From: Acidobacteriota bacterium
Lineage (GTDB): Bacteria > Acidobacteriota > Terriglobia > UBA7540
Assembly (NCBI GenBank): GCA_902812465.1
Contig: CADDZE010000035.1
Coordinates: 1 to 40,428 of the forward strand
Direction of reading: 5' to 3'
Length of the DNA stretch: 40,428 nucleotides
In this document: piece by piece, positions 2,548 through 38,808 of the stretch
Position numbering within the stretch: position 1 is the stretch's first letter
Layout of the letters: each line of letters starts with the position of its first letter
Program-made: the position numbers and the translations under genes
Notes under the pieces: generated by a model
Database searches by the model: none
Seen by the model: only the letters and a program-made list of their open reading frames with translations
Told to the model about the DNA's origin: nothing

Positions 2548-3300
2548 ATGCATGACTCGTGGTTCGCCGCAATCGTCAACAAGCTCCTGGCACCTGTGGT
2601 GACGCCACTGCTCGACGCTCTGGCACGCGAGCCGGGGTTCGCCTGGGTGCGTCCGGCGGACGCCGCTCATCCCATCCCCAATTACCTCGCGATGGAGCTG
2701 TTGGTGATTCTGATCACCGTTGCCGCAGTGCTCTTCTTGCGGTCGCGGCTTTCCGTCGAGCGCCCCGGCAAGCTCCAGCATATCGCCGAGGTTATCGTTG
2801 AGTTTACGCGCGATATGAACCAGGAGATCATCGGCCGTGACGGCGGCCGTTATGTGGGCATGATCGCGACGCTGGGCATCTTCATCGCCCTGTGCAACCT
2901 GCTAGGGTTGATCCCTTCGCTCGAGACACCCACGGCACATATCCAGGTGACGCTGGGCTGCGCCGTAGCCGCCTTCCTTTACTACAATTTTCACGGATTC
3001 CGCCAGCATGGTGTGGTCGGTTACTTGAAACACCTTGGCGGGCCTATGCTGGCCATTGCCATTATCATGTTCCCGATCGAGGTGATCGGCAATTTCGGCC
3101 GGCTGCTCTCGTTGAGCGTCCGTCTTTACGCCAACATGATGGTGGGCGACCTTCTGGAAAAGGTCTTCACTGGGCTCGTGCCGGTCGCTGTACCCGCAGT
3201 GTTTGCGGCGCTGCACATCTTCGTGTCGCTGCTGCAAGCGTATATCTTTATGCTGCTGCCCGCCGTATACATCAGCATGGCCGTGGCAGAAGAACACTGA
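2548..3300 (+). CDS. atpB: F0F1 ATP synthase subunit a
   Basis: This 250-residue membrane protein provides the proton half-channels of the F0 sector next to the c-ring. The hallmark helix LSLSVRLYANMMVGDLL carries the essential Arg (residue 192, equivalent to E. coli Arg210). The last helix, SLLQAYIFMLLPAVYISMAVAEEH, holds the conserved Gln near the C terminus. The N-terminal helix (about 46-64) is followed by the family segment ending in FTRDMNQEIIGRDGGRYVG. The ATG start has GGGAG 8 nt upstream. It lies between atpI and atpE. The b, delta and F1 subunits are not in this window, so the ATP synthase genes are split into at least two loci. Confidence 0.95.
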   Translation: MHDSWFAAIVNKLLAPVVTPLLDALAREPGFAWVRPADAAHPIPNYLAMELLVILITVAAVLFLRSRLSVERPGKLQHIAEVIVEFTRDMNQEIIGRDGGRYVGMIATLGIFIALCNLLGLIPSLETPTAHIQVTLGCAVAAFLYYNFHGFRQHGVVGYLKHLGGPMLAIAIIMFPIEVIGNFGRLLSLSVRLYANMMVGDLLEKVFTGLVPVAVPAVFAALHIFVSLLQAYIFMLLPAVYISMAVAEEH

Positions 3301-3506
3301 GCCGATGGAACATTGGACCATAGACTCATCGGCGGTCTGGAGATGGAATCATCCCAAGGACTCGATCAATCCATAGCGGAAGGAAGCAATTGCTCGATCC
3401 GCCAGTGTGAGCCCCGTCTGAACGTTGTGGTGTCGGGGAACCACCTCCTGACGGAAAATTCATAAGCGGTGCCGCGGCGGGATGGCCACGGGACCGAGGA
3501 GGAAAC

Positions 3507-3824
3507 GTGAAGGGCAAAATTTTCGTGTATCTGTTGGGTTTGGCAGGGCTGCTGGCGTCCGTTCCCGTTTTCGCCCAGGCCGGTCAAGAGGGCGGCGCAT
3601 TGTCGGGCACCAACTGGGTGGCCATCACCGCCGGCTTCTCGATGGCCATAGCTTCGGCGGGGTGCGGCTACGCGCAGTCTAAGGCCACGGCCGCTGCGTG
3701 TGAGGGGCTAGGACGAAATCCAGGAGCGCGGCCGGCCATCCAATTCGCACTGATCCTGGCGTTGGTGCTGATTGAATCGATGGCCCTGTACACCTTCGCC
3801 ATCATATTCGCCAAAGTTAAGTAG
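3507..3824 (+). CDS. atpE: F0F1 ATP synthase subunit c with N-terminal signal-like segment
   Basis: This 105-residue c-subunit forms the rotor ring of F0. It is longer than the usual 75-90 residues because of an N-terminal hydrophobic leader ending VFAQA (about residue 25), which looks like a cleavable signal sequence. The two-helix hairpin follows, with the loop GRNPGA (69-74). The ion-binding carboxylate is Glu90 in LIESMALYTF. Gln57, Ser91 and Tyr95 occupy positions that bind or frame Na+ in Na+-driven c-rings, but the Thr after Ser is Met and the upstream Pro is missing, so ion specificity is uncertain. The start is a GTG with a strong GAGGAGG about 4 nt upstream. A 206-nt spacer without a supportable gene separates it from atpB. 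Confidence 0.93.
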   Translation: MKGKIFVYLLGLAGLLASVPVFAQAGQEGGALSGTNWVAITAGFSMAIASAGCGYAQSKATAAACEGLGRNPGARPAIQFALILALVLIESMALYTFAIIFAKVK

Positions 3825-3947: not shown

Positions 3948-4919
3948 TCAATACCGTGCCAGATAAGCAGCCGTGAATCGCTTTACAGCCTCCTGTGAGG
4001 TAAAGCAGGGTTGGTATCCGAAGACCGTCTTCAGCCGTGTGTTGTCGGCAACCCAGGGATAGCGCATCAGATCGAGGATGCCGCTGGGGAAGGGCGAGAG
4101 ATGTAACACCCACAGCACGCCCGTGAGGGCGTGCAGCAGCCACGCCGGAAGTTTCAGACTTCGCTTTCCCGCCGCCCCCACCACTTCGCTGAATCGGACC
4201 ACGCCGTCGGCGGCAGCATTGATGACGCCGCGGACGTGCGACTTCAGGGCGCGGTAGAGGATTTCGCCGGCGTCTTCTTCGGCAAGAAACTGAAGCGGCG
4301 GATCCGCCCCCTGAACTTGGAAGACCCACGGGAAGGCGGGAAAAGGCCAGTCGAATAGCTGCGAAACGATATTGTTCGTATGGGCGCCCAATACGATCGG
4401 CGCACGAAGGATGAGCACCTCGATCCCCGGATGCGCAGCCATGAAGTCCTGGGCTTCGCGGTCCACTTCGGCTTTGTATTTCGAATAGAGATAGTTCGTC
4501 GTTCCTCGGGGTGGTATTTCCTCCATCAGAAAAGGTGGCTGCGAAGGATTTCCCGGCTGGACGTAGACGGTGGTGCTGCTGGCGTAAACCACCCGGCGCA
4601 GGCCGGCCCCGGCGGCGGCACGGAAGAAGTTGCGAGAGCCGTCCACGTCAATGGCCCTTTCACGCGCAGTGTCGTGAATCGGATTGAACTGCCAAGCCAA
4701 GTGCAGCCCCAAGTCGATCCGATGCTGGACCAGCAAGTCCCGCAGCTCGGACCAGGGAGCAGTGAGATCAAACCGGACGAACGAAAATCCGCCGGCCATT
4801 TCTGATCTGCCGGGGCGAATATCAAGACCGAGGACATACTCGCAGTCGGGGTCGGCTGCTAGCCGGCCGACTAGTTGCTGGGCCAGGTAGCCGCTGCTGC
4901 CGGTAATGGCCAGCCGCAT
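3948..4919 (-). CDS. NAD(P)-dependent SDR-family epimerase/dehydratase
   Basis: This 323-residue extended short-chain dehydrogenase/reductase begins with a Rossmann beta-strand and the glycine motif TGSSGYLAQ (6-14). It has an Asp at the end of beta-2 (LGLDI, about 33) suggesting NAD(H) preference. It also has the catalytic Ser/Thr region YASSTTVY (112-119) and YLYSK (Tyr143, Lys147) as the YxxxK pair. The fold fits nucleotide-sugar epimerases and related enzymes, but the substrate cannot be read from the sequence. The ATG at 4919 was preferred because the Rossmann strand starts at once and an AGGAG lies about 11 nt upstream. It begins 14 nt after the sulfatase-like gene stops and is probably the last gene of that unit. 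Confidence 0.85.
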   Translation of the reverse strand: MRLAITGSSGYLAQQLVGRLAADPDCEYVLGLDIRPGRSEMAGGFSFVRFDLTAPWSELRDLLVQHRIDLGLHLAWQFNPIHDTARERAIDVDGSRNFFRAAAGAGLRRVVYASSTTVYVQPGNPSQPPFLMEEIPPRGTTNYLYSKYKAEVDREAQDFMAAHPGIEVLILRAPIVLGAHTNNIVSQLFDWPFPAFPWVFQVQGADPPLQFLAEEDAGEILYRALKSHVRGVINAAADGVVRFSEVVGAAGKRSLKLPAWLLHALTGVLWVLHLSPFPSGILDLMRYPWVADNTRLKTVFGYQPCFTSQEAVKRFTAAYLARY

Positions 4920-4933
4920 GCCCAAGGTTTCTC

Positions 4934-7048
4934 CTAAGGCTCCAGGCGCGAAGCGAAAGTGGACGCGTACTGGCGGCAGAGGTCGTGGTTCAAGCCGCAG
5001 ACCTTTTGATAGCAAGCCCGAGCCTTGGAAGTCTGCCGTTGCCGCAGATATTCGAAGGCCAAGTTCAGGTATGCCGCTGCGTAACGAGGATCGAGCGCGA
5101 TGGCAGCCTGGTAAGCCCGAACCGCGCGATCAGACTCATTCGTATTGGCAAGGGCGATGCCCAGGTAGTTGTACGCCACCGCATTCCGGAATCCTAGATC
5201 GATGCCCCGCTGGATTTCAGACTGGGCATCGCGATACTGGCGCAGCATGGCGAGGACGATGCCGTAATCGGTGTGCCCCTCGGCAAATTGCGGCTCCTCC
5301 TCGACGACGCGCGCCAGCTGAGCTCGCGCCTTCTCCGGCAGGTTCTGGCGCAGATATACCCGGGCGAGGGCTACCCGCGCTAGAAAGTTGCGAGGGTTGA
5401 GACGCAGGGCCCATGCGAGGCTGGTCTCCGCAGCGTCGTCCCTTCCCAGGACGAAGTAGGCCCGGCCCAGCCCCAGCGCCGCCTGATCAAAGGCTGGGTT
5501 GCGCGCCAGGGCTTGACGAAATTCGTCGGCAGCTGCCCGCGCCTTCCCCCACCCCAAGTAGTTTTCCGCCCGCTCGAAGTGGATCACGTAAAGTCCTGGC
5601 TCCTCGCGCTCGAGTTCAGCAAGCATGTGGTCCGCCTCAGCGTATTTTCCGAGCCGGGTGAGGTCGGAAGCGCGCAGGATGCGGTTCAGTGTCTCGATCT
5701 TGTCCTTGGGATCGGCCCCCGCAGAAGCCTCGGGGGAATCGCGGGAGGCAATGTAGCCAAGCGACCGCAGCTTCGCTAGCGTCTCCGGGTCAGGTGTCGC
5801 GTCCGGCGCTGGCCTGTGGGGATTCGTGAAGGCGCGCTCGAAGTCGGCGAGCCGCGTGCGCAGGGAGCGTGCCAGGTCGGGTTGCACGGCGAATAGGTTC
5901 GAGCGCTCGCCGGGATCGTGGCGCAGGTCATAAAGCTCGGGACAGGGGGCGTCGATGTACTTGTAATTCGCGGTGACCGCAGCGCGTAACTCGTGCCAAC
6001 CAAAGGAGTCGCGCGGATAGTAGGACTCCGCGTAGACACTCTCGCCTTCCGGAGGCAAGCGAAACAGGGAGCGGCCCTGCATGCTGGCGGGCGGCCGAAC
6101 CCCACAGAGCTCAAGGATGGTGGCAGCGATATCGACGACCGACACAGGTTGCGCAACAACGGTACCCTTCTCAGCCGCACCCCCAAGCTTGAGGATGAGG
6201 GGAACGTGGAGCGTGGCGTTGTAAATAAAGAAGCCATGCTCCTGCTCGCCATGCTCGCCCAGCGATTCTCCATGGTCACTGGTGAGAACAATGACGGTGG
6301 GGTCGTAGAGGTTCATTTCCCGCAGCCCTGCGATGACACGCCCAACCTGCGCATCGTCGAAGGCGATGGCGGCGTCGTACGGCCGGCCTGGGAAGCGGCT
6401 GCGATAGGGGTCAGGGGAGGTGTACGGGCTATGGGCGTCATAAAGGTGGAGCCAGGCAAAAAACGGGTGGTGTCCGTTTTCATGCAGCCACTTCAGGAGG
6501 CGGTCGACCGAGCGATCGCCTCGCCGCTGGAGCAGGAAGAGATCCTGAGACCGGCCTACACTCGCGCCCATATTATCGTCGTAGAGGTCGAAGCCCCGGT
6601 TCAGGCCCCACATCGAGTTCAGTACAAACGAGCTGACAAACGCAGCCGTATGATAGCCGTTCTGGCGGAGCAATTCGGCGAGTGTTGGAATACCAGCTGG
6701 CAGCCCTGCCGACGTGAAATCTCGAACCCCGTTATACGTGGGATACGTGCCGGTCAGGATCACGGCGTGGGCGGGAAGGGTGATTGGAACCTGGGTGTAC
6801 GCGTGTTCAAAGCGCCAGCCTTCGCTTGCGAGCCGGTCGATGTTGGGAGTGCGGGCCCGCGAATATCCATAGCAGGCGAGGTGGTCAGCCCGGACTGTAT
6901 CAAGGGTAATCAGCATAACTGAAGGCCGGAGGCTGTCCGAGGGGCGGCTCACCATCGCAGAGCTCATCAAGGCGAAACACGCTGAGAAGGCAAAGCCCAG
7001 CGCCAAAGCTCCAGCTTGTGCCACAGCGGTTTTGTGGGAAGGCTTCAT
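4934..7048 (-). CDS. Secreted sulfatase-fold (alkaline phosphatase superfamily) protein with C-terminal TPRs
   Basis: This 704-residue protein starts with an N-terminal signal or anchor (about 10-33). A sulfatase-like catalytic domain spans about 42-430 and TPR repeats about 445-700. Metal-ligand motifs of the superfamily are present: LDTVRADHL (Asp50) and TSDHGESLGEHGE (Asp258, His259). The position of the formylglycine Cys/Ser (C/S-x-P-x-R) reads TLPAH, so Thr90 replaces Cys/Ser and His replaces Arg. A classical formylglycine sulfatase is therefore unlikely. A Thr nucleophile, as in phosphoethanolamine transferases of the superfamily, is possible. The gene overlaps the upstream paralogue by ATGA (7045-7048) and is followed 14 nt later by the SDR gene. 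The ligand of the TPRs is unknown. Confidence 0.85.
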   Translation of the reverse strand: MKPSHKTAVAQAGALALGFAFSACFALMSSAMVSRPSDSLRPSVMLITLDTVRADHLACYGYSRARTPNIDRLASEGWRFEHAYTQVPITLPAHAVILTGTYPTYNGVRDFTSAGLPAGIPTLAELLRQNGYHTAAFVSSFVLNSMWGLNRGFDLYDDNMGASVGRSQDLFLLQRRGDRSVDRLLKWLHENGHHPFFAWLHLYDAHSPYTSPDPYRSRFPGRPYDAAIAFDDAQVGRVIAGLREMNLYDPTVIVLTSDHGESLGEHGEQEHGFFIYNATLHVPLILKLGGAAEKGTVVAQPVSVVDIAATILELCGVRPPASMQGRSLFRLPPEGESVYAESYYPRDSFGWHELRAAVTANYKYIDAPCPELYDLRHDPGERSNLFAVQPDLARSLRTRLADFERAFTNPHRPAPDATPDPETLAKLRSLGYIASRDSPEASAGADPKDKIETLNRILRASDLTRLGKYAEADHMLAELEREEPGLYVIHFERAENYLGWGKARAAADEFRQALARNPAFDQAALGLGRAYFVLGRDDAAETSLAWALRLNPRNFLARVALARVYLRQNLPEKARAQLARVVEEEPQFAEGHTDYGIVLAMLRQYRDAQSEIQRGIDLGFRNAVAYNYLGIALANTNESDRAVRAYQAAIALDPRYAAAYLNLAFEYLRQRQTSKARACYQKVCGLNHDLCRQYASTFASRLEP

Positions 7049-9036
7049 CGTGCGCCACTGCCTTTGGCCAAGCTAAACTCGCGTTCGGCGTCGGCGCCGC
7101 GCCCCAGCAGTTGATAGGCCCGGCCTAAATCGTAATGAGCTTTGGCCAGGCTGGGAGCAAGCTGGGTGGCACGCTCGAGGGCGCGGGCTGCGTCGCCAGC
7201 TCGCCCCTGGTACAAATAGAGCTGGCCGAGTGCTTCGTAGGCCTGGGCGTACTCGGGATTGATTTCGACTGCCCGCTGGAACTCGCGCAGCGCGTCATCC
7301 ACCCTTTTCTTCTTCACGAGTGTGGCCCCAAGATTGTAGGCTGCCGAGAAGTTCGTCGGATCGAGCTTTAGGGCCTCCTGAAAGGCGGTGATGGCGCCGT
7401 CGAAATCGCCCATCTGAACGCGAGTCAAACCAAGATAGTAACTGGCGAGCGCGAACTTGGGGTCGAGGCGGAGTGCAGCCTGGAAGCTTGCGGCTGCCCG
7501 GCGATAATCCCTCAGCCGGTAGTAGTCGAGCGCTGCCAAGTAGTGAGCAGGCATCAGAGCCGGATCAGCCTTCTGCACTTCCTCAAGCTTGCGCAGCGAA
7601 TCCTGGTAGCGGCCCCGTTGGCCATCTTCCATCGCTTCAGAGAAGGTCTCGTAAACGTGGATGCGGTCCTTGGGGTCAGAGAGGGGCCTGCCATTGGAGT
7701 TGGCGAAATGCCCACCGGAGACGGCCGCGTACCCCAGCGACCGCAGCCGCTCAAGCAAGGCCGGATCAGTCAGCTCCTTCTCGGTGTTTCCTGCACTCGG
7801 AGTGAAGCGCTGAATTAGGGCATTAAGCCGGGCATGCATCGCAGCCGCCTGCACCTTGCGAGACTGGAAAAGGTTCTTCGTTTCCAGTGGGTCGGTACGA
7901 GTGTCGTAGAACTCCGGCCTTGGCGCGTCGATGTACTTCAGACCCTGCAATTGCAGGCCACGGAGCTGACTCCAGCCGAAATGCAGCAAGGGCAGGTAAG
8001 TTTCCGAATAGAGAAGGGAGGCGCCGGTCAGGTGCCGCTGTCCCTGAATTTCCCGGAGCAGGCTGCGCCCCTGCACACTCTTGGGGATAGAAAGGCTTAG
8101 GGCATCGAGCACCGTCGGCATGACGTCGGCGAGCGACACTTCGCTCTGTACAACACGCGGGTGGACGCCCGGAATTCTGATCAGCAGCGGCACATGAAGG
8201 GTCGAGTTGTAGATAAAGAAGCCGTGGGTCCTTTCGCCGTGTTCTCCGAGTCCCTCGCCGTGGTCAGCTGCCAGGACAATGACGCTGGGCGTGTAGAGGC
8301 TTCTTGCGCGCAACCAATCCAACAGGCGGCCAACTTGGGCATCTGCGAACGCGATCTCTCCGTCATATGGCCGTCCCCGGTAGCGGGAAGCAAAGGGTTC
8401 CGGAGGCGCATAGGGATAATGCGGGTCGTAGAGATGAACCCAAAGAAAGAAGGGTTGTGCAGGCTGCCGCGTCAACCATGCCAATGCCTCGTCGACTACC
8501 TGGTTGCCAGGACGCTTCATTTGGTCGAGCTTGGTTTCGTCGAGGCGGCTAAAATCGAAGTGGTCGAAGTAGGTGTCAAAACCCTGGTTGAGCCCGAAGC
8601 GCGAATCGAGCACAGCACCGCCGACAAAGGCTGCGGTGGTGTACCCGTTCTCGTGGAGCAGCTTGGCCAGGGTCATCGCCGTGGCGGGCAGCTTGTTGCC
8701 GCTGAAATCGTGCATCCCCGTGGCCATGGGAAACTTACCGGTAAAGATCACGGTGTGCGCTGGAAGGGTGATGGGGACAGGAGTGTACGCCTGGATGAAG
8801 CGCGCGCCATCCGCCGCAAGGCGGTCGATATTCGGTGTCCGGATGCGAGCGTCGCCATAGCAGCCCAGATGGTCGGGGCGAAGCGTGTCAACCGTGATGA
8901 AGATGACGCTCGGCCTCGCGGTCCGTGCCGGCTCCAGGTGGCTGCGCGGTGAGGCCAGCATCATGACGGACAGCGCGAGTGCTGCCATCCTCCGGATCGG
9001 GCGGGGCCTACGCTTGGGTTGGCAGATGATCTTCAT
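7045..9036 (-). CDS. Secreted sulfatase-fold (alkaline phosphatase superfamily) protein with C-terminal TPRs, paralogue
   Basis: This 663-residue paralogue of the adjacent gene shows the same order: a signal peptide with an Arg-rich n-region (KRRPRPIRR, 8-16), a sulfatase-like domain (about 42-440), then TPR repeats (about 465-655). The motifs fall at identical residue numbers to the neighbour: VDTLRPDHLG (Asp50), TLPAH (Thr90) and AADHGEGLGEHGE (Asp258, His259). Thr again replaces the formylglycine Cys/Ser. The ATG at 9036 was chosen because a signal peptide follows directly. An upstream in-frame start at 9129 would put 31 atypical residues in front. No strong ribosome binding site is visible. 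The pair likely arose by tandem duplication and is translated as a coupled unit, divergent from the TPR/CRTAC1 operon. Confidence 0.83.
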   Translation of the reverse strand: MKIICQPKRRPRPIRRMAALALSVMMLASPRSHLEPARTARPSVIFITVDTLRPDHLGCYGDARIRTPNIDRLAADGARFIQAYTPVPITLPAHTVIFTGKFPMATGMHDFSGNKLPATAMTLAKLLHENGYTTAAFVGGAVLDSRFGLNQGFDTYFDHFDFSRLDETKLDQMKRPGNQVVDEALAWLTRQPAQPFFLWVHLYDPHYPYAPPEPFASRYRGRPYDGEIAFADAQVGRLLDWLRARSLYTPSVIVLAADHGEGLGEHGERTHGFFIYNSTLHVPLLIRIPGVHPRVVQSEVSLADVMPTVLDALSLSIPKSVQGRSLLREIQGQRHLTGASLLYSETYLPLLHFGWSQLRGLQLQGLKYIDAPRPEFYDTRTDPLETKNLFQSRKVQAAAMHARLNALIQRFTPSAGNTEKELTDPALLERLRSLGYAAVSGGHFANSNGRPLSDPKDRIHVYETFSEAMEDGQRGRYQDSLRKLEEVQKADPALMPAHYLAALDYYRLRDYRRAAASFQAALRLDPKFALASYYLGLTRVQMGDFDGAITAFQEALKLDPTNFSAAYNLGATLVKKKRVDDALREFQRAVEINPEYAQAYEALGQLYLYQGRAGDAARALERATQLAPSLAKAHYDLGRAYQLLGRGADAEREFSLAKGSGAR

Positions 9037-9161
9037 CGGGGCAAAGCCGGAACCACTCAGGATCGGCGGCCCTAAGCCTGGTCGCCATGGCATTGCGGCC
9101 TGCCGGGCAGCCAGAGGGCATTGTACCAAGCCCGAACGTTTCGAATCGCGGTCGCACGTGT

Positions 9162-9190
9162 TTGACTCCGAGCACGCACAGCACTAACAT
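9162..9190 (+). promoter_or_regulatory. Candidate sigma70-type promoter for the TPR/CRTAC1 operon
   Basis: TTGACT (9162-9167) and TAACAT (9185-9190) are separated by exactly 17 nt. They lie in the 168-nt divergent spacer between the sulfatase-like pair and the TPR gene. The predicted transcript start would fall only about 8 nt before the GTG at 9205, so the leader would be very short. It is supported only by consensus matching. Confidence 0.4.
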
Positions 9191-9204
9191 CGTGGCATAG
9201 GATC

Positions 9205-10176
9205 GTGCGGGACACTCAGCAGAACGTTTTCAGGCGCGCGGCAGCGACTCGAAGCGCCCCGGGTATCGTCGTACTTTTCGCTCTCCTTGCAGGCACCGAT
9301 TGCGCAGCAAGATTTCAGCAGCCGGAACAGGTGCTGGTCGACAAGATCAGCCAAGAGATAGCGGCAGGCCGTACCGAAGGGGCGCTCAATACCGCGCGGA
9401 GGGCCGTCGACCGGTATCCGAAGTCGGCCTTGCTCCTGCAATTGCTGGGCGTGGCCGAGTTTAAGGCGGGACTCAACGATGCTGCCCGCCAATCGCTTCG
9501 CCGCGCTGTAGAGCTCGACCCAAGCATTCCCGAGAACTACTTCAACCTGGCGCTGGTCGATCTGAGCGAGAAGCGCTACGCCTCGGCGGCTAGCTCATTG
9601 GAAGCGTTTCTGCGCTTGAAACCGCACTCGGCACAAGCCCACCTGTTGCTAGGCCGTGCGTACCAGAACCTGAACCGCACGCAACCAGCGATCGAGCAGT
9701 TCCGACAGGCCATCGTGTTGTCTTCGCACTTGCCGCTTGCCCACTACCACCTTGGCTTTGCGTACCAGAGCCAAGGGAACCTCGATGCGGCATTCAAGGA
9801 GTTCGAGAAGGAGATCAAGGCCAATCCAGAATTCAGCGACGCCTACTTGCTGGCAGGTAACATTCAGCTTGAACGCGGCAACACCGAGGCCGCCGAGGGT
9901 CTGTTCCGCCAGGCGGTGCGCCTGAAGCCGGACTCGTTTGAGGTGCACTACGGCCTGGCACGGGCCTTGCTGGCGCGCGACGAGCTGGCGGAGGCGGAGC
10001 TGGAACTGCACCGAGTGCTCGCGCTGAGCCCCGGCAACGTTGAAGCGCACTACATTTTGGCCCGTACCTACCAGCGAATGGGAAAAGCGGCGGCCGCCGC
10101 GCAGCAATTCCGCGCAGTGGCCGAACTGCACGAACGGCAGCGGGGCGAGCAGTCCGGGATCGCGGCGCGCCACTAA
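9205..10176 (+). CDS. Secreted TPR-repeat protein
   Basis: This 323-residue protein has an N-terminal signal-like hydrophobic stretch (about 19-34). About eight tandem tetratricopeptide repeats cover residues 45-315. Typical repeat signatures include YFNLALVDLSEKRYASAASSL and AHYHLGFAYQSQGNLDAAF. TPR arrays form superhelical peptide- or protein-binding scaffolds, and no catalytic domain is present. The start is a GTG with AGGA close upstream. Start choice is uncertain because the leader from the best promoter would be very short. It is followed 8 nt later by the CRTAC1 gene, and the two probably act together outside the cytoplasm. Confidence 0.8.
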   Translation: MRDTQQNVFRRAAATRSAPGIVVLFALLAGTDCAARFQQPEQVLVDKISQEIAAGRTEGALNTARRAVDRYPKSALLLQLLGVAEFKAGLNDAARQSLRRAVELDPSIPENYFNLALVDLSEKRYASAASSLEAFLRLKPHSAQAHLLLGRAYQNLNRTQPAIEQFRQAIVLSSHLPLAHYHLGFAYQSQGNLDAAFKEFEKEIKANPEFSDAYLLAGNIQLERGNTEAAEGLFRQAVRLKPDSFEVHYGLARALLARDELAEAELELHRVLALSPGNVEAHYILARTYQRMGKAAAAAQQFRAVAELHERQRGEQSGIAARH

Positions 10177-10184
10177 ATGCTTGC

Positions 10185-12026
10185 ATGGCGACTTACTCTT
10201 CCTCATTACAGGCCAGCTTAGGTTCCAAGAAGGCCTGCCTCGTCGTGTTGTTAGCTGCGGCTTGCCTCTTGTTGTCGGAACCGGGCACGACGTCGCCGAG
10301 GGTCGGCCGTGCTGCTAGCCTGACGGCGAGAGCTGGTGCTCAGCGGCCAGCAAGAGGGCGCGCCAGTGTTCCGGCCAACCTGGACCAGTTCATTGAAGTG
10401 GCTGAACGGGCTGGCATCCACTTTAGCCTGACCAGCGGCGGCCCCGAGAAGCGCTACATTATCGAAGCCAAAGGGGGCGGGGGCGCGGCCTGGTTCGATT
10501 ACAATAACGACGGCTTTCCCGACCTGTTCCTGGTCAATGGGTCGACCTTCGAAGCATGGCGGCAGGGTACCAGTCCGCCTTCCCACCTCTATCGCAACAA
10601 CGGTGACGGTACGTTCACGGACGTGTCCAAGGGCTCCGGCCTGAACCACACGGGCTGGGGCATGGGCGTGTGCGTCGGCGATTACGATAATGATGGTTAC
10701 GACGACCTCTACGTGACGTATTACGGCGGCAATGTCCTCTATCACAATAACGGCAACGGTACGTTTACCGATGTGACGGACAAGGCGGGAGTGCGCGGCC
10801 ACGGCTGGGGCATGGGCTGCGCCTTCGGCGACACCGACAACGACGGTTACCTGGACCTTTATGTCGCCAATTACCTCGACGTGGACATCAACCACCTAGG
10901 CGAACCCGGCAGCGCACCCAACTGCACCTATCGCGGCATTGCTACCTTTTGCGGGCCCCGTGGCCTGCCTGGCGGCCGCGACATCCTGTTTCACAACAAC
11001 CGCAACGGCACTTTCACGGATGTCACCGAGCGCGCCGGCATCGATCCTCATGCCTATTCCGGGCTGGGTGTTGTGATGGGCGATTACGATGGCGACGGCC
11101 GCTTGGATATTTACGTTGCCAACGATTCCACGCCCAGCTCGCTTTACCATAACAACGGCGACGGAACTTTCACGGACGTCGGCCCGCAAGCAGGAGTTGC
11201 TTATAGCGATGAAGGCCAGGAGCAGGCGGGAATGGGAACAGACTTTGCCGACTATGATAACGACGGTTGGGGAGACCTAGTGAAAGGTAACTTTTCCGAC
11301 GATACTAAAAACCTATATCACAACAACCGCGACGGTACCTTCACTGACGTAACGTACCAGGCGGGTCTGGGCGGCGCCGGCTGGCTCTTTACCACCTTCG
11401 GCGCCAAGTTCCTGGACTACGACAATGACGGCTGGAAGGACATCTTCCTGGCCGACGGTCAAACGTTTCCCCAGATGGACCGCTATCCGACGGGCATCAC
11501 GTACGCGGAGCGAAACTTACTGTTTCATAACCTGGGGACCCAGCGCGGCCAGGTGAAGTTTGAAGAAGTCGGATTGCGCTCGGGTCCTGGCCTCGCCATC
11601 AAGAAGGTTAGCCGTGGCCTGGCGGTCGCGGACTACGATAACGACGGCGACCTGGAGATAATCGTGACCAATATGAATGATTCGCCGGACCTCTTGCGCC
11701 ACGCGCGCAAGAATCTGCACCACTCGATCATCATCAAGACCGTCGGCACCCGGAGCAATCGTGACGGCCTCGGTGCGGAAATCAAGGTAGTGGCGGACAG
11801 CCTGACGCAGTACGACACGGTGCGCAGCGGCGGCAGCTATCTTTCGTCGAGTGATTTGCGGCTCCATTTCGGATTGGGCGCCACCGCCCGCGTGGATCGT
11901 ATCGAAGTGCACTGGCCCAGCGGAGTGACCGACGTGGTGAAAGACTTGCCAGCGGACCACATCCTGACGGTCACAGAAGGGCAAGGGGTAACCGCCAGCA
12001 AGGCTTTTCACAAGGGCACTCTTTAG
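10185..12026 (+). CDS. CRTAC1-family protein: FG-GAP/VCBS propeller with ASPIC/UnbV domain
   Basis: This 613-residue secreted protein has a signal segment (about 16-33). Blades of an FG-GAP/VCBS-type beta-propeller follow (about 80-500), with Ca2+-binding loops such as DYDNDGYDDLY, DTDNDGYLDLY, DYDGDGRLDIY and DYDNDGWKDIF. The C terminus matches the ASPIC/UnbV domain (about 520-600): GLGAEIKVV, GGSYLSSSDLRLHFGLG and VHWPSG. Such proteins are abundant in Acidobacteriota and Planctomycetota and are named after cartilage acidic protein 1. Their bacterial role is not established. It lies 8 nt after a TPR protein and its stop directly abuts the next ATG, so the three genes form an operon. Confidence 0.9.
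   Translation: MATYSSSLQASLGSKKACLVVLLAAACLLLSEPGTTSPRVGRAASLTARAGAQRPARGRASVPANLDQFIEVAERAGIHFSLTSGGPEKRYIIEAKGGGGAAWFDYNNDGFPDLFLVNGSTFEAWRQGTSPPSHLYRNNGDGTFTDVSKGSGLNHTGWGMGVCVGDYDNDGYDDLYVTYYGGNVLYHNNGNGTFTDVTDKAGVRGHGWGMGCAFGDTDNDGYLDLYVANYLDVDINHLGEPGSAPNCTYRGIATFCGPRGLPGGRDILFHNNRNGTFTDVTERAGIDPHAYSGLGVVMGDYDGDGRLDIYVANDSTPSSLYHNNGDGTFTDVGPQAGVAYSDEGQEQAGMGTDFADYDNDGWGDLVKGNFSDDTKNLYHNNRDGTFTDVTYQAGLGGAGWLFTTFGAKFLDYDNDGWKDIFLADGQTFPQMDRYPTGITYAERNLLFHNLGTQRGQVKFEEVGLRSGPGLAIKKVSRGLAVADYDNDGDLEIIVTNMNDSPDLLRHARKNLHHSIIIKTVGTRSNRDGLGAEIKVVADSLTQYDTVRSGGSYLSSSDLRLHFGLGATARVDRIEVHWPSGVTDVVKDLPADHILTVTEGQGVTASKAFHKGTL
10588..11352 (+). repeat. Internal FG-GAP coding repeats
   Basis: Five in-frame copies of a segment encoding (Y/F)(H/R)NN(G/R)(D/N)GTFTDV occur inside the CRTAC1 gene at intervals of roughly 150-250 nt, with a sixth degenerate copy near 11520. 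The DNA copies remain similar, for example the AACGG-GACGGTACGTTCAC type core. This fits propeller blades that grew by duplication. The boundaries given are approximate. Confidence 0.7.
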
Positions 12027-12632
12027 ATGAGCGAGGACGAAAACCATATGAACTGCAGGGTGCGACACAGGCAAGGGATTCAGGCCGCTTCTTTCAGCGC
12101 ACTGGCGGTATTCCTGGCGCTCCTCGCCGCAAGCTTGCAGGCTCAGGGTCAGTTTCAGGTGGTGACTGGGTACGCGTTCGACGCAGCGCTGCCGAGGGAT
12201 TTTTACCTGGAAGGAAATGCAATTCCTACTGAGAAGCGCAATGCCGCGCTAATACAATTGCCTGCTGGCGGGCGTCTGCTGGTGGCACTTCTCGATACCA
12301 GCGGCTACAGCTCCCAAGTCCAGCAGAAGTATGCGGGAATGCTGATCACAGAAGATGCCGTCTTCGTCTGCGGCCAGAGAGTTAATGGCGGAAGCTACGG
12401 CTTTGGAATCGTCCGCGCGTTTGCTCCGGATTCTTACGCCGGGGGGAGCCATCCGAAGGCCCGATTTCGGGTCTACGATCAGGCGGGCAGGCAGGTGATC
12501 GAGTGTCTGGCCGAGAGGGATGAACAGATCGGGCACCCTCGCCCGCTGCAGGTACTGATAGAACAGGGTGTGGCCGCTCGGCTTTATCTAGGACGCGATT
12601 GGGTGGCCCTGACAACGGTCGGCTCGCGATAA
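12027..12632 (+). CDS. Small secreted protein of unknown function, third gene of the TPR/CRTAC1 operon
   Basis: This 201-residue protein is not recognised. A hydrophobic segment (about 22-39, ending LQAQGQ) looks like a signal peptide. The mature part is mixed, with no Cys pairs or catalytic motif I can name. The first ATG directly follows the CRTAC1 stop. A second ATG at 12048 has a GAGG-like sequence about 10 nt upstream and would give a more usual signal peptide starting MNCRVRHRQ, so the true start may be 12048. Its position suggests it is exported with the CRTAC1 and TPR proteins. Confidence 0.65.
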   Translation: MSEDENHMNCRVRHRQGIQAASFSALAVFLALLAASLQAQGQFQVVTGYAFDAALPRDFYLEGNAIPTEKRNAALIQLPAGGRLLVALLDTSGYSSQVQQKYAGMLITEDAVFVCGQRVNGGSYGFGIVRAFAPDSYAGGSHPKARFRVYDQAGRQVIECLAERDEQIGHPRPLQVLIEQGVAARLYLGRDWVALTTVGSR

Positions 12633-15103: not shown

Positions 15104-17067
15104 TTACAAACAACCCTTCAAGAACTCGAACACCCGCTGATTCAAGTACAACCGCGACGCCTCGGAGCGGAACCCATGTTTCTCTCCCGGCTGGATATAC
15201 AGCTCGAAGGGCTTGCGCGCCTGGATGAGCGCCTCGAGAAAATTTATGGTGTTCTGCATGTGGACGTTATCGTCGTCGGTGCCGTGGATCAGCAGCACCT
15301 TCGCCTGGAGCTGGCCAGCCGCCTCGAGCAGCGATGCATCCCGGTAGCCTTCTGGACTCTCTTTTGGGGTGCGCATATAGCGCTCGGTGTAGATACTGTC
15401 ATAGAACTTCCAGTCGGTTACAGGGCCGCCAGCGGCGCCGCACTTGAACCGATCGGGAACGTGAGTGAGGGCGAACAGCGTCATATGTCCACCGTAGGAC
15501 CAGCCACGAATGCCGATGCGAGTGGGACCCACATAGGGCAGCGTCTCAAGATAGTCAAGCCCAGCGAGCTGGTCCTCGAGCTCATGCTGCCTCCGTCCTT
15601 GGCTTTGACCTCGACAAATTCGGTCCTACTGAGCGCGTAGTCCTGAAGGTGGTTCTCGGGCTTGTCGATCGTGGCCATCGGCTTACCGTCCGCGCTGAGC
15701 AGGCACACCTCGGGCGGCGTAGCCAGATCGGAGAATGTATCGATCAGCAAGTTCTCGTCTGGCGAAAGGCTGAATGAATGCCTTCCCGCCTGGCGGGTGA
15801 GCCTTTCGAAGCCGGTACCATCCAAGCGGACGCGGTAAACTCGGCGCTCGCGCGAATCGTGCTCTGTAGCGGCAAAATGGACCCAACCAGATTTCTCACC
15901 CACCTGGAACATCGGCACATCGGAGAACACCGGGTGGTCGATCAGCCACCGGCCACGTGTGAGCTGCGTTTGCCAGTGGCCGTTGGCGCCGTACAAGTAG
16001 AGGTGAAGCCAGCCGTCACGCTCAGACAGCCAAAGGAAGCGCGCGTCGTCCAGGTAACGAGGGGCATCCACAGAGTTAATCCAGTAGCGGTCGCTTTCGC
16101 GCAGCAGTTCGCGGCAGGCGCCTGACTCCCGCTGCCATGCGAGGACTTTCAGCTCCGTTTGCGGGCGATTCAGGGTGATCGCGACCACCTGCGTCGAGTC
16201 CGGCGTCCAAGCGAGGTTAGGGCCAAAATGCTCGACGCCGGCGTCAGCCAGCGAAAGGTCCCAGTGCTTCCTCTCGCCTTCGACAACGGACACCACATGC
16301 AACGATGGCTTCGGATTGGGATCGCCAGGCTGCGGAAAGCGTTCGTTCGCGAGCTCGACGTGCGTGGAGAGGTAACTGATGAGCGAATACTCCGGCACCG
16401 GCGTATCGTCAAGGCGCAGGTAGGCAATGCGATTGCCGCCGGGCGACCACTCGTAGGCACGGCCCGTCGCCCGGTTGGCAAGCTCCTCTTCGTAAACCCA
16501 ATCCAGCTTGCCATTCAGAACGTTTTCATTGCCGTCGCGCGTGAGTTGCTTCAGGACACCGGTCTTGAGGTCAAGCGCGTAGAGGTTGTTCGCGCGCACG
16601 AAAGCCAGGCGATCGCCTGCGGGCGAAAACGTAGCATCTTCGTCGGGCTCAGCGTCGTCCGTAAGCCGGCGGAACTGGCGGTTGTCCATGTTCCATAGCC
16701 ACAGGTCCAAGGTGCTCTCGATGAGAAGCTGATCGCCACGTGGCGACCACTGATAGCTTGCCAGGGCGAGTCCGTTCCTCCTGACCTCTTCGGCGACTGC
16801 ATCGAGCAGCACGTGCTCTTGGCCGCTGACCGCGTCGTACAAGCAAAGCTTGGACTGAGTTTGCCTGTCCGATTCGCTACGGCGGAGGTAACTGACCTGG
16901 TTGTGGCCTGGGCGCCATGCTACGCGGGCGATTCCACGTGCCACGACAGGGGCAGGATTCGTCACCAGCTCGATGGTCAGGGGCTTCTTCCTATCTTGCC
17001 GGCCAGCTTCCGGCCAACCCGTTTCCGGCAGAAACACCAGTAGCAGTGTGAGCGCAACGGGTTTCAT
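15104..17067 (-). pseudogene. DPP-IV-like S9 peptidase gene with internal deletion and frameshift
   Basis: Residues 1-492 read as an exported DPP-IV-type protein: a signal peptide, then the eight-bladed propeller with LDWVYEEELANRATGRAYEWSP, the family Glu-Glu segment for binding the substrate N terminus. After VKAKDGG, near 15590, the frame changes. The catalytic part resumes in another frame with QHELEDQLAGLDYL and GIRGWSYGGHM (Ser nucleophile), then GTDDDNVH (Asp) and GEKHGF (His), ending at 15104. Known family members have about 80 more residues here, including the YGGP oxyanion Tyr and the DNRG segment. I infer a deletion of about 240 nt that also shifts the frame. The first reading frame runs on out of phase to 15481. 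This is either a real pseudogene or an assembly error. Confidence 0.85.
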
Positions 17068-25078: not shown

Positions 25079-28553
<3,475 letters not shown>

Positions 28554-28555
<2 letters not shown>

Positions 28556-28593
28556 AAATGCCGGAACGAAGCCACTAAGTTATTGAAAACACA
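28554..28593 (+). repeat. Interspersed repeat, copy B
   Basis: This copy begins on the last two bases of the kinase stop codon (TAA, 28553-28555). It matches 34 of 40 positions of copy A (31-70). It is in the same orientation as copies A and C, and lies 242 nt from copy C. Confidence 0.75.
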
Positions 28594-28795
28594 AGAAGTC
28601 TGTCCGCCAGGGTTCCCGTTGGCGCCCAGTTCACCACTGGATCGGATTGAATCGGGTGCGCTGCCTGAGACACCCGCTGGGAAGGATCTCAAACTTGGGG
28701 TTGCCGCTGCGACGCGCTCGGGTCCCGAAGACTAAAAGAGGTAAAGTCCGATTCAAGATTGCCCTGGTCTAGAGGCTTGCATTGGGACTGAAACG

Positions 28796-28837
28796 AAAAA
28801 TTTAAGGAACGAAGCCACCAAGTTACTGAAAATACGT
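28796..28837 (+). repeat. Interspersed repeat, copy C
   Basis: Positions 28804-28837 are identical to 38-71 (copy A) over 34 nt. Both are preceded by an A5 run, with one extra base in copy C. With copy B it brackets about 240 nt of non-coding DNA in direct orientation. Confidence 0.8.
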
Positions 28838-28943
28838 ACCGGGATAACTTAGGATGTCAAACGGCGGAGGCGGCGGGAGGGGAGCAGCAGGTGGGCTTGT
28901 TTACAGAGCAAATGATACAGACGAGCCGGACCCAAAATACCGG

Positions 28944-28972
28944 TTGACAAACCCGATCGGCTGTCTGATACT
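28944..28972 (+). promoter_or_regulatory. Promoter of the Oar-like receptor operon
   Basis: A perfect TTGACA (28944-28949) is followed after 17 nt by GATACT (28967-28972). Transcription would start near 28980 and leave a leader of about 190 nt before the ATG at 29176, long enough for post-transcriptional control. No riboswitch family was recognised in it. Confidence 0.6.
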
Positions 28973-29175
28973 TTGCGCCAGCGCGCGTTGTTAGTCATGC
29001 GACGCGTAGCGGGCCTGATTTCGTTCTTAAACTTAACTTTCACTTGCTTCGCCCCGGGTTACCGAGCCCGCCTAAGAATCCAGGCTGGAGGGCGGAGCCC
29101 CAGTTTCCTGTTAGCGTCCGGTATGATTGGTCCTACGTCATGGAACGCCGGCAAGTTGGCTGGGGAGAGGGTCCC

Positions 29176-32100
29176 ATGAACAAATGGATTGCCCACTGGC
29201 TAATGCTTCTGGTCATTGGGTTCTGGCCACTGCTAATACGTGCCCAGGTGGACACCGGCACGGTTCTGGGCACGGTGAAAGACCTCTCCGGGGGTGTAGT
29301 CCCGGGCGCCAAGGTGATCTTGACCAACGAGAGCACTGGGCTCACTCTAACCACGACTTCAGCCGCCGACGGGACGTATATCTTTACGCCCGTCAAGGTG
29401 GGCACCTACTCGGTTGAGACAGAAGTGGCCGGCTTCGAGAAAGCGATCCGGAAGAACGTTACCGTGGAGTTACAACAGCGCGTGGTGGTGGACTTCACCC
29501 TGCGGCCTGGTGCATTGACGCAGGCGGTGGTGGTGAGCGGCGCACCACCGCAACTGCAGACCCAGGACGCGTCGGTAGGCCAGGTGGTGGGCGCACGCGA
29601 AATCAACAACCTGCCACTGAACGGACGCAATTTTACCTTCCTGGCACAGATCGTGGCGGGGGTCAATACGCCCCAGGCTGATACGCGGGGCAACGCGGCC
29701 TCCGGCGCCTTCTCGGCCAATGGGGAGCGGCCGGCACAGAACAACTACCTTTTGGACGGCATCGACAACAACTCCAATACCATCGACTTCCTCAACGGCA
29801 CCAACTTTGTCGTCCTGCCTCCGGTGGATGCCATCCAGGAGTTCAAGGTCCAGACGAGCAACTACAGTGCCGAGCAGGGACGGGCGGGCGGGGCCATCCT
29901 CAATGCCACCGTCAAATCGGGGACGAACGAACTTCACGGCGATTTCTGGGAATTCTTTCGCAACGACAAGCTGGATGCCGCCGACTTCTTCGAGGACGCG
30001 GGAGGCATCCAGAAGGGCGAGTTTCGCCTGAATCAGTTCGGTTTCACGGTGGGCGGGCCGGTGGTGATTCCCCACAAGTTCAATGGGCGAAACAAGCTGT
30101 TTTTCTTCGGCGACTATGAAGGTACGCGGCGGCGGCAAGGCAGCGTCTTCACCAATTCCGTTCCTACAGCACTCGAGAAAGCAAGCGGTTATACCAACTT
30201 ATCGGAGCTCATCACCGAGCAGACCGGCAACGTGAGCAGCACGGACGTGCTGGGCCGGACTTTTCCCTTCGGAACCGTGTTCGATCCGGCTACGGTGCGC
30301 CCGGTGGTTTGCGGGACGACGGACGCTGAAACCGGCCTGCAGGCCCCCAGCTGTGCTTCGGTAGGGCAGCCTGCCGGAACCATCCTGAGCTATGTTAGCG
30401 ACCCCTTCTTCGGGCCTAACGGGACATCCCCCGTGGGCAACAGAACAGACTTTACAGGGCTGTGCCCGAACACTGGGTCTTGTCTGCTCAATCAGCTTCC
30501 GGCCGGACGTCTCGATCCCAATGCCATCAAACTGCTAGGCCTTTACCCACCAGCTCAGCGGCCCGGGATCGTCAATAACCAGACGTCTAATCCCAATCTG
30601 CGGGAGAATCGCAACGGCTTTGATATCCGGACGGACTTCAATGCTAACGAGAAGAACCAGCTCTTTGGCCGCTTCAGCTATGTCAATGATCCGCAGTTCA
30701 TCCCCGGACCTTTTGGAGGGATCGCTGACGGCGGCGCTTTCCAGCAGGGAGTCCAGACGGCCCTTTCCGAGCAGGGCGTCCTAGGCTGGACGCGTGGCCT
30801 CTCACCCACGGCGGTGAACGAAGCGCGATTCGGCCTCACTTACATCCATACCTCGCGGAACGGTCCCGAGGGTAACACCATGGGGCTTCCGGCGCAGTTT
30901 GGGATTCTGGATGTTCCCCAAGTGCCGGAGAATGGCGGCCTTCCCGCGTTCACCATTGGCGGCCTCAACACCCTCGGCACCAATGCCTTCCTGCCTTCCG
31001 ATGAGGTGAATAGCACCGTACAGGTGACGGATAACTTCAGCAAGGCCTATGGAAAGCATGCTTTTAAGATGGGTTTCGAGTTTCAGCACATCAAGTTCTC
31101 CACCCTTCAGCCCTCCTGGTCGCACGGCCAATTCGACTTTGGCGGCACTTATACTGGACCAGGCAACACGGGTATCGCTCAGCTCCTCCTCCTGCCCTGC
31201 CCCGGCGGCGGTGACCCAACGCCGTCACCGGTGGGCTGCCCCAACGTGCTGAATGCGGTGCCCAACGTGGGTGGTGCGGACGCCGTCTTTACGTCCAACA
31301 TTTCGCTCGTCGACGATTTGCACAATTACTACGGTACGTACTTTCAGGACGACTGGAAAGTGACGCCCAAATTGACTCTGAACCTCGGCCTGCGCTGGGA
31401 GCACTTCGGACTCCCAGAGGAAGCTCACGGGCGGCAGGCCAACTTCGTGCCTGGCGTTCCTTTCCAAACCGCAGCTTACCTGGTCCCCGACACCACCAAG
31501 AATCGCGCCATCTTCTCCACCTTTGCTCCCAGTGTGGCTCCCAACGGTTTCAGCGCTGCACTAGCCACGGACGGCATTGCGCTCACATTTGTGAAGAACA
31601 AGCCGGAACTCGCCGATGCTCAGAACCGTAACTTCGCTCCCCGCTTCGGCATGGCTTATCAAATTACGCCCAAGCTGGTCATGCGCGGCGGCTTCGGCAT
31701 CTTTTACGGCGGTTTTGAGGTGCAAAACGGAAACAACCAAGGCAACAGCTTCCCGTTCCAGTTCAACTTCGGATTGTTCAGCCCGAACTCGAATACCCCA
31801 ATTACCGTCCCCGGCCTTTCGAACGCCCCCGCGGGTTGCAGCGTGGCATACACCTTTGAGCTCGGCTTCGCCTGTACTCCCCTCGATCCCGCCCTGGTGC
31901 CGGGCTTCGGAGTGGGGCTGACCGGGCTCCAGACCAACTTCCAGACGCCCTACTCCGAGGGCTGGAATCTGACGTTCGAGTACGCCTTTACCCCCACGCT
32001 CACCCTGACCATGGGTTACGTTGGCAACAGCACACATCACCTAGAGCTTTTCAAGGGCGCCAATACTGTGTCCCAAATCCTGCCTCCGAACACTTGCCTG

Positions 32101-33027
32101 GAAGCTCCCAGCTGTCCCGGCCAGAATCCCGGCAACGTCAGTTACGTACCGTTCCCACACTTCTCCCCCGGCCAGACGTACCAAACTACAGACGGCGACA
32201 GTTACTATCATGGCCTTCAGACAACTCTCGAGAAGCGGTTTTCGCGAGGATTGAACTTCCTCGCGACCTACACCTGGTCGCGATGCCGAAGCGATGCAGC
32301 GGACCTGCTCAACGCTACTGCTATCGGCTCCTATCGTGCGGTGAATGTTCCCGGCGCCGGGATCAAGCATGACTACGGTGACTGTGACTTCGACATCCGG
32401 CATGTCGTTCACTTCAGCGGCGGATACGAGCTCCCCTTTGGCCGGGGCAAGAGTTTTCTCAAAAACACCAGCCGTGTGGTGGACCTCCTACTTGGTGGCT
32501 GGAGCACGCAGTGGATCACAACGCTCGAGGGCGGCCAGCCGATTACCATCCCTTGCTCGGCCGACGATAATCCGGCCTCTGGGGTGGGCTGTTATGCCTT
32601 TACTATTCCCGGGGTGAACCGCCACGGGCCTGGAGCGCCTGACCATTTCTTGAATCCGGCAGCCTTCACTCAGCCGTGCCCGCCCCAGGGCTTTCCGCAG
32701 CCCTCCAAGTGTATCCCGGTGGGAACCGGTCTCGCCTTGCTCGGGGGGACGGCAACGCAGGTCTCGGGTCCGGCCATCAACCGGCTGGATTTTTCGCTGT
32801 TCAAGAACTTCCAGTTGTCGGAGCGCTTCCGCTTACAATTCCGCAGCGAGTTTTTCAACATCCTGAACCATCCGACCTTCAACGCTCCAGGATTCGGCGG
32901 CAACGGCGTCATTGCCATCCCTGGATCGCTCGATTTCTCGAACAGTGCTTTCGGAGAAGTCGGGTCCACGCGCTTTCCGTTCAATGATCCGCGGCAGATT
33001 CAGTTTGCCTTGAAGCTCTACTATTGA
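29176..33027 (+). CDS. Oar-like TonB-dependent outer-membrane receptor
   Basis: This 1283-residue protein begins MNKWIAHWLMLLVIGFWPLLIRAQ, a signal peptide. A carboxypeptidase-regulatory-like beta-sandwich follows (about 25-110, GTVLGTVKDLSGGVVPGAKV). The plug (about 115-250) contains GREINNLPLNGRNF-type and LLDGIDNN motifs and VDAIQEFKVQTSNYSAEQGRAGGA. The rest is a large beta-barrel ending in the aromatic strand RQIQFALKLYY. This is the Oar/Cna-B-like type that is strongly expanded in Acidobacteriota and imports large substrates such as glycans or peptides. I chose the ATG at 29176 because it starts the signal peptide and has GGGAGAGGG about 5 nt upstream. Two small secreted proteins follow on the same strand. 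Confidence 0.92.
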   Translation: MNKWIAHWLMLLVIGFWPLLIRAQVDTGTVLGTVKDLSGGVVPGAKVILTNESTGLTLTTTSAADGTYIFTPVKVGTYSVETEVAGFEKAIRKNVTVELQQRVVVDFTLRPGALTQAVVVSGAPPQLQTQDASVGQVVGAREINNLPLNGRNFTFLAQIVAGVNTPQADTRGNAASGAFSANGERPAQNNYLLDGIDNNSNTIDFLNGTNFVVLPPVDAIQEFKVQTSNYSAEQGRAGGAILNATVKSGTNELHGDFWEFFRNDKLDAADFFEDAGGIQKGEFRLNQFGFTVGGPVVIPHKFNGRNKLFFFGDYEGTRRRQGSVFTNSVPTALEKASGYTNLSELITEQTGNVSSTDVLGRTFPFGTVFDPATVRPVVCGTTDAETGLQAPSCASVGQPAGTILSYVSDPFFGPNGTSPVGNRTDFTGLCPNTGSCLLNQLPAGRLDPNAIKLLGLYPPAQRPGIVNNQTSNPNLRENRNGFDIRTDFNANEKNQLFGRFSYVNDPQFIPGPFGGIADGGAFQQGVQTALSEQGVLGWTRGLSPTAVNEARFGLTYIHTSRNGPEGNTMGLPAQFGILDVPQVPENGGLPAFTIGGLNTLGTNAFLPSDEVNSTVQVTDNFSKAYGKHAFKMGFEFQHIKFSTLQPSWSHGQFDFGGTYTGPGNTGIAQLLLLPCPGGGDPTPSPVGCPNVLNAVPNVGGADAVFTSNISLVDDLHNYYGTYFQDDWKVTPKLTLNLGLRWEHFGLPEEAHGRQANFVPGVPFQTAAYLVPDTTKNRAIFSTFAPSVAPNGFSAALATDGIALTFVKNKPELADAQNRNFAPRFGMAYQITPKLVMRGGFGIFYGGFEVQNGNNQGNSFPFQFNFGLFSPNSNTPITVPGLSNAPAGCSVAYTFELGFACTPLDPALVPGFGVGLTGLQTNFQTPYSEGWNLTFEYAFTPTLTLTMGYVGNSTHHLELFKGANTVSQILPPNTCLEAPSCPGQNPGNVSYVPFPHFSPGQTYQTTDGDSYYHGLQTTLEKRFSRGLNFLATYTWSRCRSDAADLLNATAIGSYRAVNVPGAGIKHDYGDCDFDIRHVVHFSGGYELPFGRGKSFLKNTSRVVDLLLGGWSTQWITTLEGGQPITIPCSADDNPASGVGCYAFTIPGVNRHGPGAPDHFLNPAAFTQPCPPQGFPQPSKCIPVGTGLALLGGTATQVSGPAINRLDFSLFKNFQLSERFRLQFRSEFFNILNHPTFNAPGFGGNGVIAIPGSLDFSNSAFGEVGSTRFPFNDPRQIQFALKLYY

Positions 33028-36872: not shown

Positions 36873-36927
36873 ACGGCAGTCCACCCCCTCGATCTTGACC
36901 CATTCCGGCGAAAAACCCGCATGAAAT

Positions 36928-38808
<1,881 letters not shown>

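Follow-up and report, generated by a model that had tools for sequence, protein, structure and literature searches.

The closest described counterparts of the system considered here are the SusCD loci within the polysaccharide utilization loci (PULs) of Bacteroidota, the Oar protein of Myxococcus xanthus, the formylglycine (S1) sulfatases, the EptA/MCR enzymes and the CRTAC1 family. Acidobacteriota, which are abundant in soil, carry many Oar barrels and many CRTAC1 and TPR genes of obscure use. An expansion of UnbV_ASPIC, the CRTAC1 domain, is on record for Solibacter and Poribacteria in excerpts of two papers, which give no function for it (PMC3174227, PMC3909097). We analysed a stretch of 40,428 nucleotides from an Acidobacteriota bacterium, referred to as the window, which is contig C35 of a 3.9-Mb genome in 190 contigs, and in it a locus of six genes (3948-12632). 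Four of these genes are part of a set that is co-inherited in soil Acidobacteriota and usually lies beside a gene for an outer-membrane transporter. This suggests an unrecognised cell-surface machine that takes hold of some external material and trims it chemically. Searches of open-licence PMC papers turned up no account of the gene set.

The four genes form two pairs. On the minus strand SulfB (7045..9036), the first of a conserved pair, encodes a predicted exported Thr-type enzyme of the alkaline-phosphatase superfamily with a C-terminal TPR array, and SulfA (4934..7048) encodes a second Thr-type enzyme with C-terminal TPRs; the two genes overlap in the letters ATGA. On the plus strand TPR (9205..10176) encodes a predicted exported protein with TPRs only, and is followed after 8 nt by its partner CRTAC (10185..12026), which encodes a predicted exported seven-bladed FG-GAP propeller with UnbV_ASPIC. 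The pairs stand back to back around a spacer of 168 nt (9037..9204). A check of open reading frames and junctions confirmed all six frames, and with them the positions, couplings and spacer length given by an earlier sequence-only reading of this DNA.

Co-inheritance and conserved gene order

Two samples were used, a broad one of 399 genomes drawn evenly from the class and a close one of 39 genomes from the window's family (f1); below, G denotes a genome and L a fetched locus stretch. Three contigs are the same, letter for letter, as named records (Terriglobia bacterium SRVP_28, Acidobacteria bacterium YP1.bin34 and Acidobacteriota bacterium MAG_BO2); among the bearers of the locus no cultured strain was identified. 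Co-inheritance of SulfA/SulfB with CRTAC/TPR exceeds chance. In the class sample SulfB orthologues were found in 29 genomes, CRTAC orthologues in 26 and both in 23, against an expected overlap of two or so (Fisher p about 1e-28, shared ancestry ignored). Within the family there were 13 genomes with CRTAC, 14 with SulfB (at least 56% identity) and 11 with both (Fisher p 1.4e-5, shared ancestry again ignored). The CRTAC orthologue group is well separated, with 73-83% identity in the family and 56-62% outside it, while paralogues reach at most 57% and mostly about 50% or below. The class count scored six genomes as SulfB without CRTAC (G009, G023, G042, G055, G080 and G235) and three as the reverse (G015, G043 and G044). 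Closer inspection showed CRTAC at the locus in G055 and G080, and the SulfB gene of G015 is broken or fragmentary (2.5e-174, under the cut-off of the class count).

Outside the family, in 15 of the 16 SulfB genomes, the genes lie in the order SulfB> SulfA> <TPRc <Oar barrel <CRTAC <TPR, where TPRc is a second, CarboxypepD-like/TPR protein. This order spans families f6, f10 and f12. Thirteen loci (L223-L235) hold all six genes in order, with the Oar gene doubled in L229 and L231 and with the TPR gene of L228, missed by the gene caller, recovered by tblastn. The same six-gene order is present in G080 (L238), whose TPR gene is only partly within the fetched stretch, and G055 (L237) shows five genes in order before its stretch ends. 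In G235 (L239) CRTAC and TPR are absent from the stretch and this was counted as a miss; the CRTAC genes of L229, L237 and L238 received no identity value because of a cut-off, are present by tblastn and were not counted as misses. TPR lies directly upstream of the CRTAC orthologue in all nine family loci whose upstream side is intact (L118 and L119 run into contig ends, and in L242 the caller placed an 82-aa frame between the two genes). Outside the family the same holds for 14 of 15 loci, the site in the fifteenth lying beyond the fetched stretch.

Quick trees, with support from the Shimodaira-Hasegawa-like approximate likelihood ratio test (SH-aLRT) only, placed the window's genes with those of the related loci. 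The window's CRTAC, nine family and 15 locus sequences form a clade (99; 25 rows) that excludes 16 paralogues of the same genome, SulfB groups with 16 first-position enzymes (SH-aLRT 100) and SulfA with 16 second-position enzymes (98). An Oar gene elsewhere in the window's genome (C27:48031-51648), preceded by its own TPR gene and near a contig end, falls into a clade with 17 locus Oar genes and five others from the family (99). TPR orthology was based on adjacency and 36-59% identity. Orthologues of SulfB, SulfA, CRTAC, TPR and Oar are thus all present in the window's genome; TPRc was not found there at E 1e-30 and therefore may be lost or too diverged. Among 25 genomes searched, the Oar orthologue was found in seven of the eight that bear CRTAC and, at comparable score, in none of the 17 others; the sole CRTAC-bearing genome without it is only 66% complete.

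The sequence-only reading had proposed to look for TLPAH-type enzymes, TPR and CRTAC1 genes recurring together in divergent order. Their co-occurrence and clustering in related genomes stands, and we therefore regard them as one system. The divergent order does not: among the genomes examined the pairs are back to back in the window only and converge elsewhere. Beyond that reading, the module in other genomes includes an Oar-type barrel and a second TPR protein. The window's genome departs from the single conserved-order locus, with divergent pairs, the barrel gene on contig C27 and no TPRc found.

Two further kinds of enzyme gene recur near the module. One, a PF01663 enzyme of about 670 aa, lies at the edge of the conserved locus in L223, L225, L226 and L228 and adjoins either half of the split module in five family loci (L061, L062, L112, L114 and L116); it is possibly a further member. 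The other, in f10 loci (L227, L229-L234, L238 and L239), is a third TPR-bearing enzyme of the sulfatase type; it falls in a separate clade and adjoins the locus, in some cases together with another PF01663 gene.

Proteins of the module

Pfam found TPRs in SulfA, SulfB and TPR, the three proteins to which TPR arrays had been ascribed, and a hydropathy check gave an N-terminal hydrophobic segment behind basic residues in five of the six proteins of the locus, SDR being the exception, in line with the five exports predicted earlier.

The assignment of SulfA and SulfB to Thr-type enzymes of the sulfatase fold held as well. PF00884 (Sulfatase) matched both over its cut-off (E 6.8e-48 and 2.7e-47); PF01663 was also over its cut-off in both (54.3 and 39.7 bits versus 23), with PF00884 the higher, and both enzymes gave high scores to many solved sulfatases. 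Each window enzyme has Thr in the sulfatase Cys position. Asp-Thr, Thr-x-x-x-His and Asp-His...His were invariant in 29 of 29 aligned rows (28 distinct genes). Among 42 enzymes of related loci the Thr motif was present in 41, the Asp-His motif in 41 and CxPxR in none; one of the two exceptions has a start that was called too late, and the other differs by a single letter. In the alignments Thr falls on the modified residue of steryl-sulfatase, which we take to be the modified-Cys site, and His on its Arg; a Thr takes the place of the second Asp in the metal pair of sulfatases; and His replaces a Lys of carrageenan sulfatase that is presumably catalytic. A TxPxH motif is used by NPP-type enzymes. 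The Asp-His...12...His spacing equals that of His466 and His478 in MCR-1, for which excerpts of the published work give Asp465-His466...His478 (PMC5175174, PMC5031297).

With Thr for Cys, His for Arg, His for Lys and CxPxR in 0 of 42, sulfatase activity of the formylglycine kind is unlikely. Because of the Thr, His and Asp-His...His letters, the alignments and the MCR-1 spacing, SulfA and SulfB are likelier to be phosphoryl-type hydrolases or transferases than sulfatases, and between those two we make no choice. The score to the phosphoethanolamine transferase model was 34.8 bits versus a cut-off of 500, and the enzymes have one N-terminal hydrophobic segment and no multi-helix membrane domain. 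An AlphaFold model of SulfB, built from a two-row alignment, had a mean predicted local distance difference test score (pLDDT) of 51, and most of its catalytic domain scored less than 50.

CRTAC has six FG-GAP matches and UnbV_ASPIC in Pfam, and seven calcium loops of the DxDNDG type. Its model (30 rows) reached a pLDDT of 85; the best PDB match is murine CRTAC1 (9etn, E 2.8e-31) and the next-best fold matches are GlcNAc lectins. The wider CRTAC1 theme was sampled in the best 80 of 557 confirmed loci, and later in a set of 95 loci with better gene calls. A TPR gene was adjacent to 48 of 112 CRTAC genes versus 36 of 394 other genes of at least 300 aa (p 7e-15, kinship ignored), a count that, like the small-protein neighbourhoods described below, came from tblastn or a simpler gene caller, the later calls being codon-score based. 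Within three genes of CRTAC1 in the 95 loci, there was a TPR gene in 88 of 139 cases and an Oar gene in 50 of 139. No sulfatase-type genes were found near the 112 CRTAC genes, and the link to SulfA/B is therefore particular to this orthologue group. Pfam scans of 110 of 278 CRTAC1 neighbours gave arabinofuranosidase C (5), GH3 (2) and melibiase (2). For background genes, of which 110 of 129 were scanned, the 25 top-ranking families include no glycosidase. A GH2 gene lies in one Oar-CRTAC locus of the window's own genome; a glycosidase candidate in L131, judged by eye, had no Pfam match.

The two module Oar proteins scanned with Pfam combine CarboxypepD_reg with a barrel whose TonB_dep_Rec score is borderline (27.1 bits versus a cut-off of 27). 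Near the split-off Oar gene a protein with a sulfatase-modifying-factor (FGE) domain is encoded beside another Oar-type barrel gene and a TPR gene (L243, 1078-6669), although the window's enzymes lack the Cys that such a factor would modify.

Flanking genes and other features of the window

The sequence-only reading had counted an SDR and a small secreted protein as members, and here it was not borne out, as in the stretches fetched the genes of their relatives do not lie beside module genes; both are chance neighbours. The SDR gene (3948..4922, minus strand), of the NAD-dependent epimerase/dehydratase type by Pfam and without an N-terminal hydrophobic segment, lies 11-14 nt from SulfA. Close relatives (57-63% identity) occur in 7 of 40 other genomes, with no module genes near them in the fetched stretches. 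The small protein (201 aa; 12027..12632, plus strand) is in stop/start contact with CRTAC and matches no Pfam or NCBIfam family. It was matched in 19 of 41 genomes (its own and 40 relatives), that is in 18 of the 40 others, and in the 18 loci fetched it adjoins no CRTAC or sulfatase-type orthologue; in L079 it adjoins a TPR gene other than that of the module, and in L082 and L088 a CRTAC paralogue lies 9-12 kb away. It defines a family widespread in the bacterial family (L007-L024, L075-L092), near DUF1080-like or sugar-isomerase-like genes in some loci.

Between 3800 and 12800, terminator-like matches (9 versus a shuffle mean of 6.7) and promoter-like matches (3 versus 2.0) were near chance; one promoter-like match lies in the spacer (9162-9190, plus strand). 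Rfam and tRNA scans of the window gave no matches. The left neighbours of the locus are genes for ATP-synthase subunits a and c (2548-3824, plus strand), which have no other atp operon genes with them and follow a proton-antiporter-type subunit gene (262-1740); on the right follows an M28-type peptidase gene. Further right, on the minus strand (15104-17067), a frame with a DPP IV N-terminal domain (15481-17067) overlaps, in a different frame, one of 142 aa (15104-15532) with a GxSxGG-type serine peptidase motif; the pair reflects either a frameshift in an S9 peptidase gene or an error in the assembly. A hybrid sensor kinase with a receiver domain is followed by an Oar-type barrel with CarboxypepD_reg (25079-33027, plus strand), and a second, truncated barrel gene (39089-40426) extends past the right end of the window. 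A single protein of 861 aa (34380-36965, minus strand) fuses a PF00144 beta-lactamase/esterase domain with a PF01427 D-Ala-D-Ala dipeptidase domain.

Possible function and comparison with known systems

The analysis shows which genes are present, that they are co-inherited and orthologous, that their order is kept outside the family, what the active-site letters are and, by hydropathy, that the N-termini are of the export type; the outer-membrane location, complex formation, substrate and direction of transport proposed below are inferences. Our favoured reading, held tentatively and at somewhat less than even confidence, is that SulfB, SulfA, TPR and CRTAC are part of a TonB-linked capture-and-processing module of the Acidobacteriota envelope, SusCD-like in its working and not in its membership. 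CRTAC and TPR would sit next to the Oar barrel at the outer membrane and bind a ligand there, the part that SusD plays for SusC, and a role of CRTAC in ligand binding would fit its calcium-loop propeller of the CRTAC1/lectin-like kind. The exported Thr-type enzymes SulfA and SulfB would dock through their TPR arms and may act on a phosphoryl-type ester group of the bound ligand, either removing or transferring it, after which the Oar barrel would move the processed product.

Several observations weigh against this proposal. Three genomes have SulfB without a CRTAC orthologue (G009, G023 and G042) and two the reverse (G043 and G044), and G235 has SulfB-SulfA and TPRc without CRTAC. In family f1 the CRTAC-TPR and SulfB-SulfA pairs are mostly on separate contigs; both are on one contig only in the window and in G016, where SulfA and CRTAC are 17 kb apart. 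A SulfA> <Oar arrangement is found in G007, G008 and G016, and several of the split TPR>CRTAC pairs are followed by DUF4097-like or similar secreted proteins. No Plug domain was matched in the two Oar proteins scanned. No constant glycosidase, sugar transporter or regulator was recognised in the conserved locus, which is therefore not a classical PUL. Finally, several loci are flanked by further PF01663 phosphodiesterase-type genes, which fit a modification of the surface equally well.

Such a modification is the first alternative: much as EptA/MCR or LtaS do, SulfA and SulfB would put a phosphoryl-alcohol or similar group on a polymer or protein of the surface, and Oar, CRTAC and the TPR proteins would place or display the product. 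The Thr that replaces the sulfatase Cys, and the phosphoethanolamine-transferase spacing of Asp-His...His agree with it, while the single N-terminal segment, the model score far under its cut-off and a TxPxH nucleophile motif that, with PF01663 over cut-off, resembles phosphodiesterases do not. We consider it rather unlikely taken alone, and yet close behind capture, because the locus is without a constant catabolic gene and is flanked by PF01663 enzymes. Cell-surface modification or recognition, as the sequence-only reading had it, is possible; we give a little more weight to a ligand being captured and processed at a TonB-dependent barrel.

A second alternative, which we judge improbable, is a protein-export assembly. 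Its Oar barrel would export or mature a surface protein, CRTAC and the TPR proteins would be cargo or chaperones, and the enzymes would act as modifiers. An excerpt of one study reports that the Oar of M. xanthus, with the same CarboxypepD_reg extension, is needed for secretion of the PopC protease (PMC6434023), and the module Oar likewise joins CarboxypepD_reg to a barrel. This case calls for caution, as such barrels may also export. However, a conserved protease or cargo gene is not in the locus, and elsewhere the CRTAC1-Oar theme adjoins glycosidases. That the genes are merely paralogues of large families brought together by chance has a negligible probability, since, despite 17 UnbV_ASPIC and 5 Sulfatase matches and many TPR and Oar genes in the window's genome, orthologues co-occur in 23 of 399 genomes and keep the same order in three families; it is refuted for SulfA, SulfB, TPR, CRTAC and Oar, and accepted for the SDR and the small protein.

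A patchily distributed conserved locus ties together families whose use in Acidobacteriota is obscure. The module would be a testable unit for the role of CRTAC1 in this phylum, and would correct the usual 'sulfatase' label of TLPAH-type enzymes.

Compared with described systems, the module resembles the SusCD loci in having a TonB-dependent barrel gene near predicted exported ligand-binding candidates and hydrolase-like enzymes, and CRTAC1 paralogues elsewhere lie near glycosidase genes. It differs from them in that the barrel is of the Oar type, a constant glycosidase is absent and the host is not a member of Bacteroidota. The TPR protein has no match to the SusD family among the best 25 of 34 Pfam rows, and no lipobox-like site. 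An Oar-type barrel lies beside CRTAC in 15 loci outside f1, and on a separate contig in the window's genome. That Acidobacteriota have a SusCD counterpart of their own, in which Oar-type barrels pair, many times per genome, with a CRTAC1 calcium propeller and TPR proteins that replace SusD, is an idea we regard as doubtful; the SulfA/B locus would then be a specialised form whose two Thr-type enzymes dock by their TPR arms and process a phosphoester-bearing ligand. With the M. xanthus Oar the module barrel shares the CarboxypepD_reg extension and a barrel of the TonB-dependent type, but it has constant partners in CRTAC, TPR and SulfA/B, and Plug was unmatched in the two proteins scanned. SulfA and SulfB share the PF00884 catalytic domain with the formylglycine sulfatases, whereas the C/S-x-P-x-R formylglycine motif is absent and Thr, His and His stand for Cys, Arg and Lys. 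With EptA/MCR they have in common the Thr nucleophile site and Asp-His...(12)...His, Glu246 and His395 being outside the comparison; unlike those enzymes they carry a TPR tail, are without the multi-helix membrane domain and score far under the family cut-off. CRTAC itself has the FG-GAP propeller, the UnbV_ASPIC domain and the fold (9etn) of the CRTAC1 family, and differs in being bacterial and in having its gene in operon order with those of a TPR protein and an Oar barrel.

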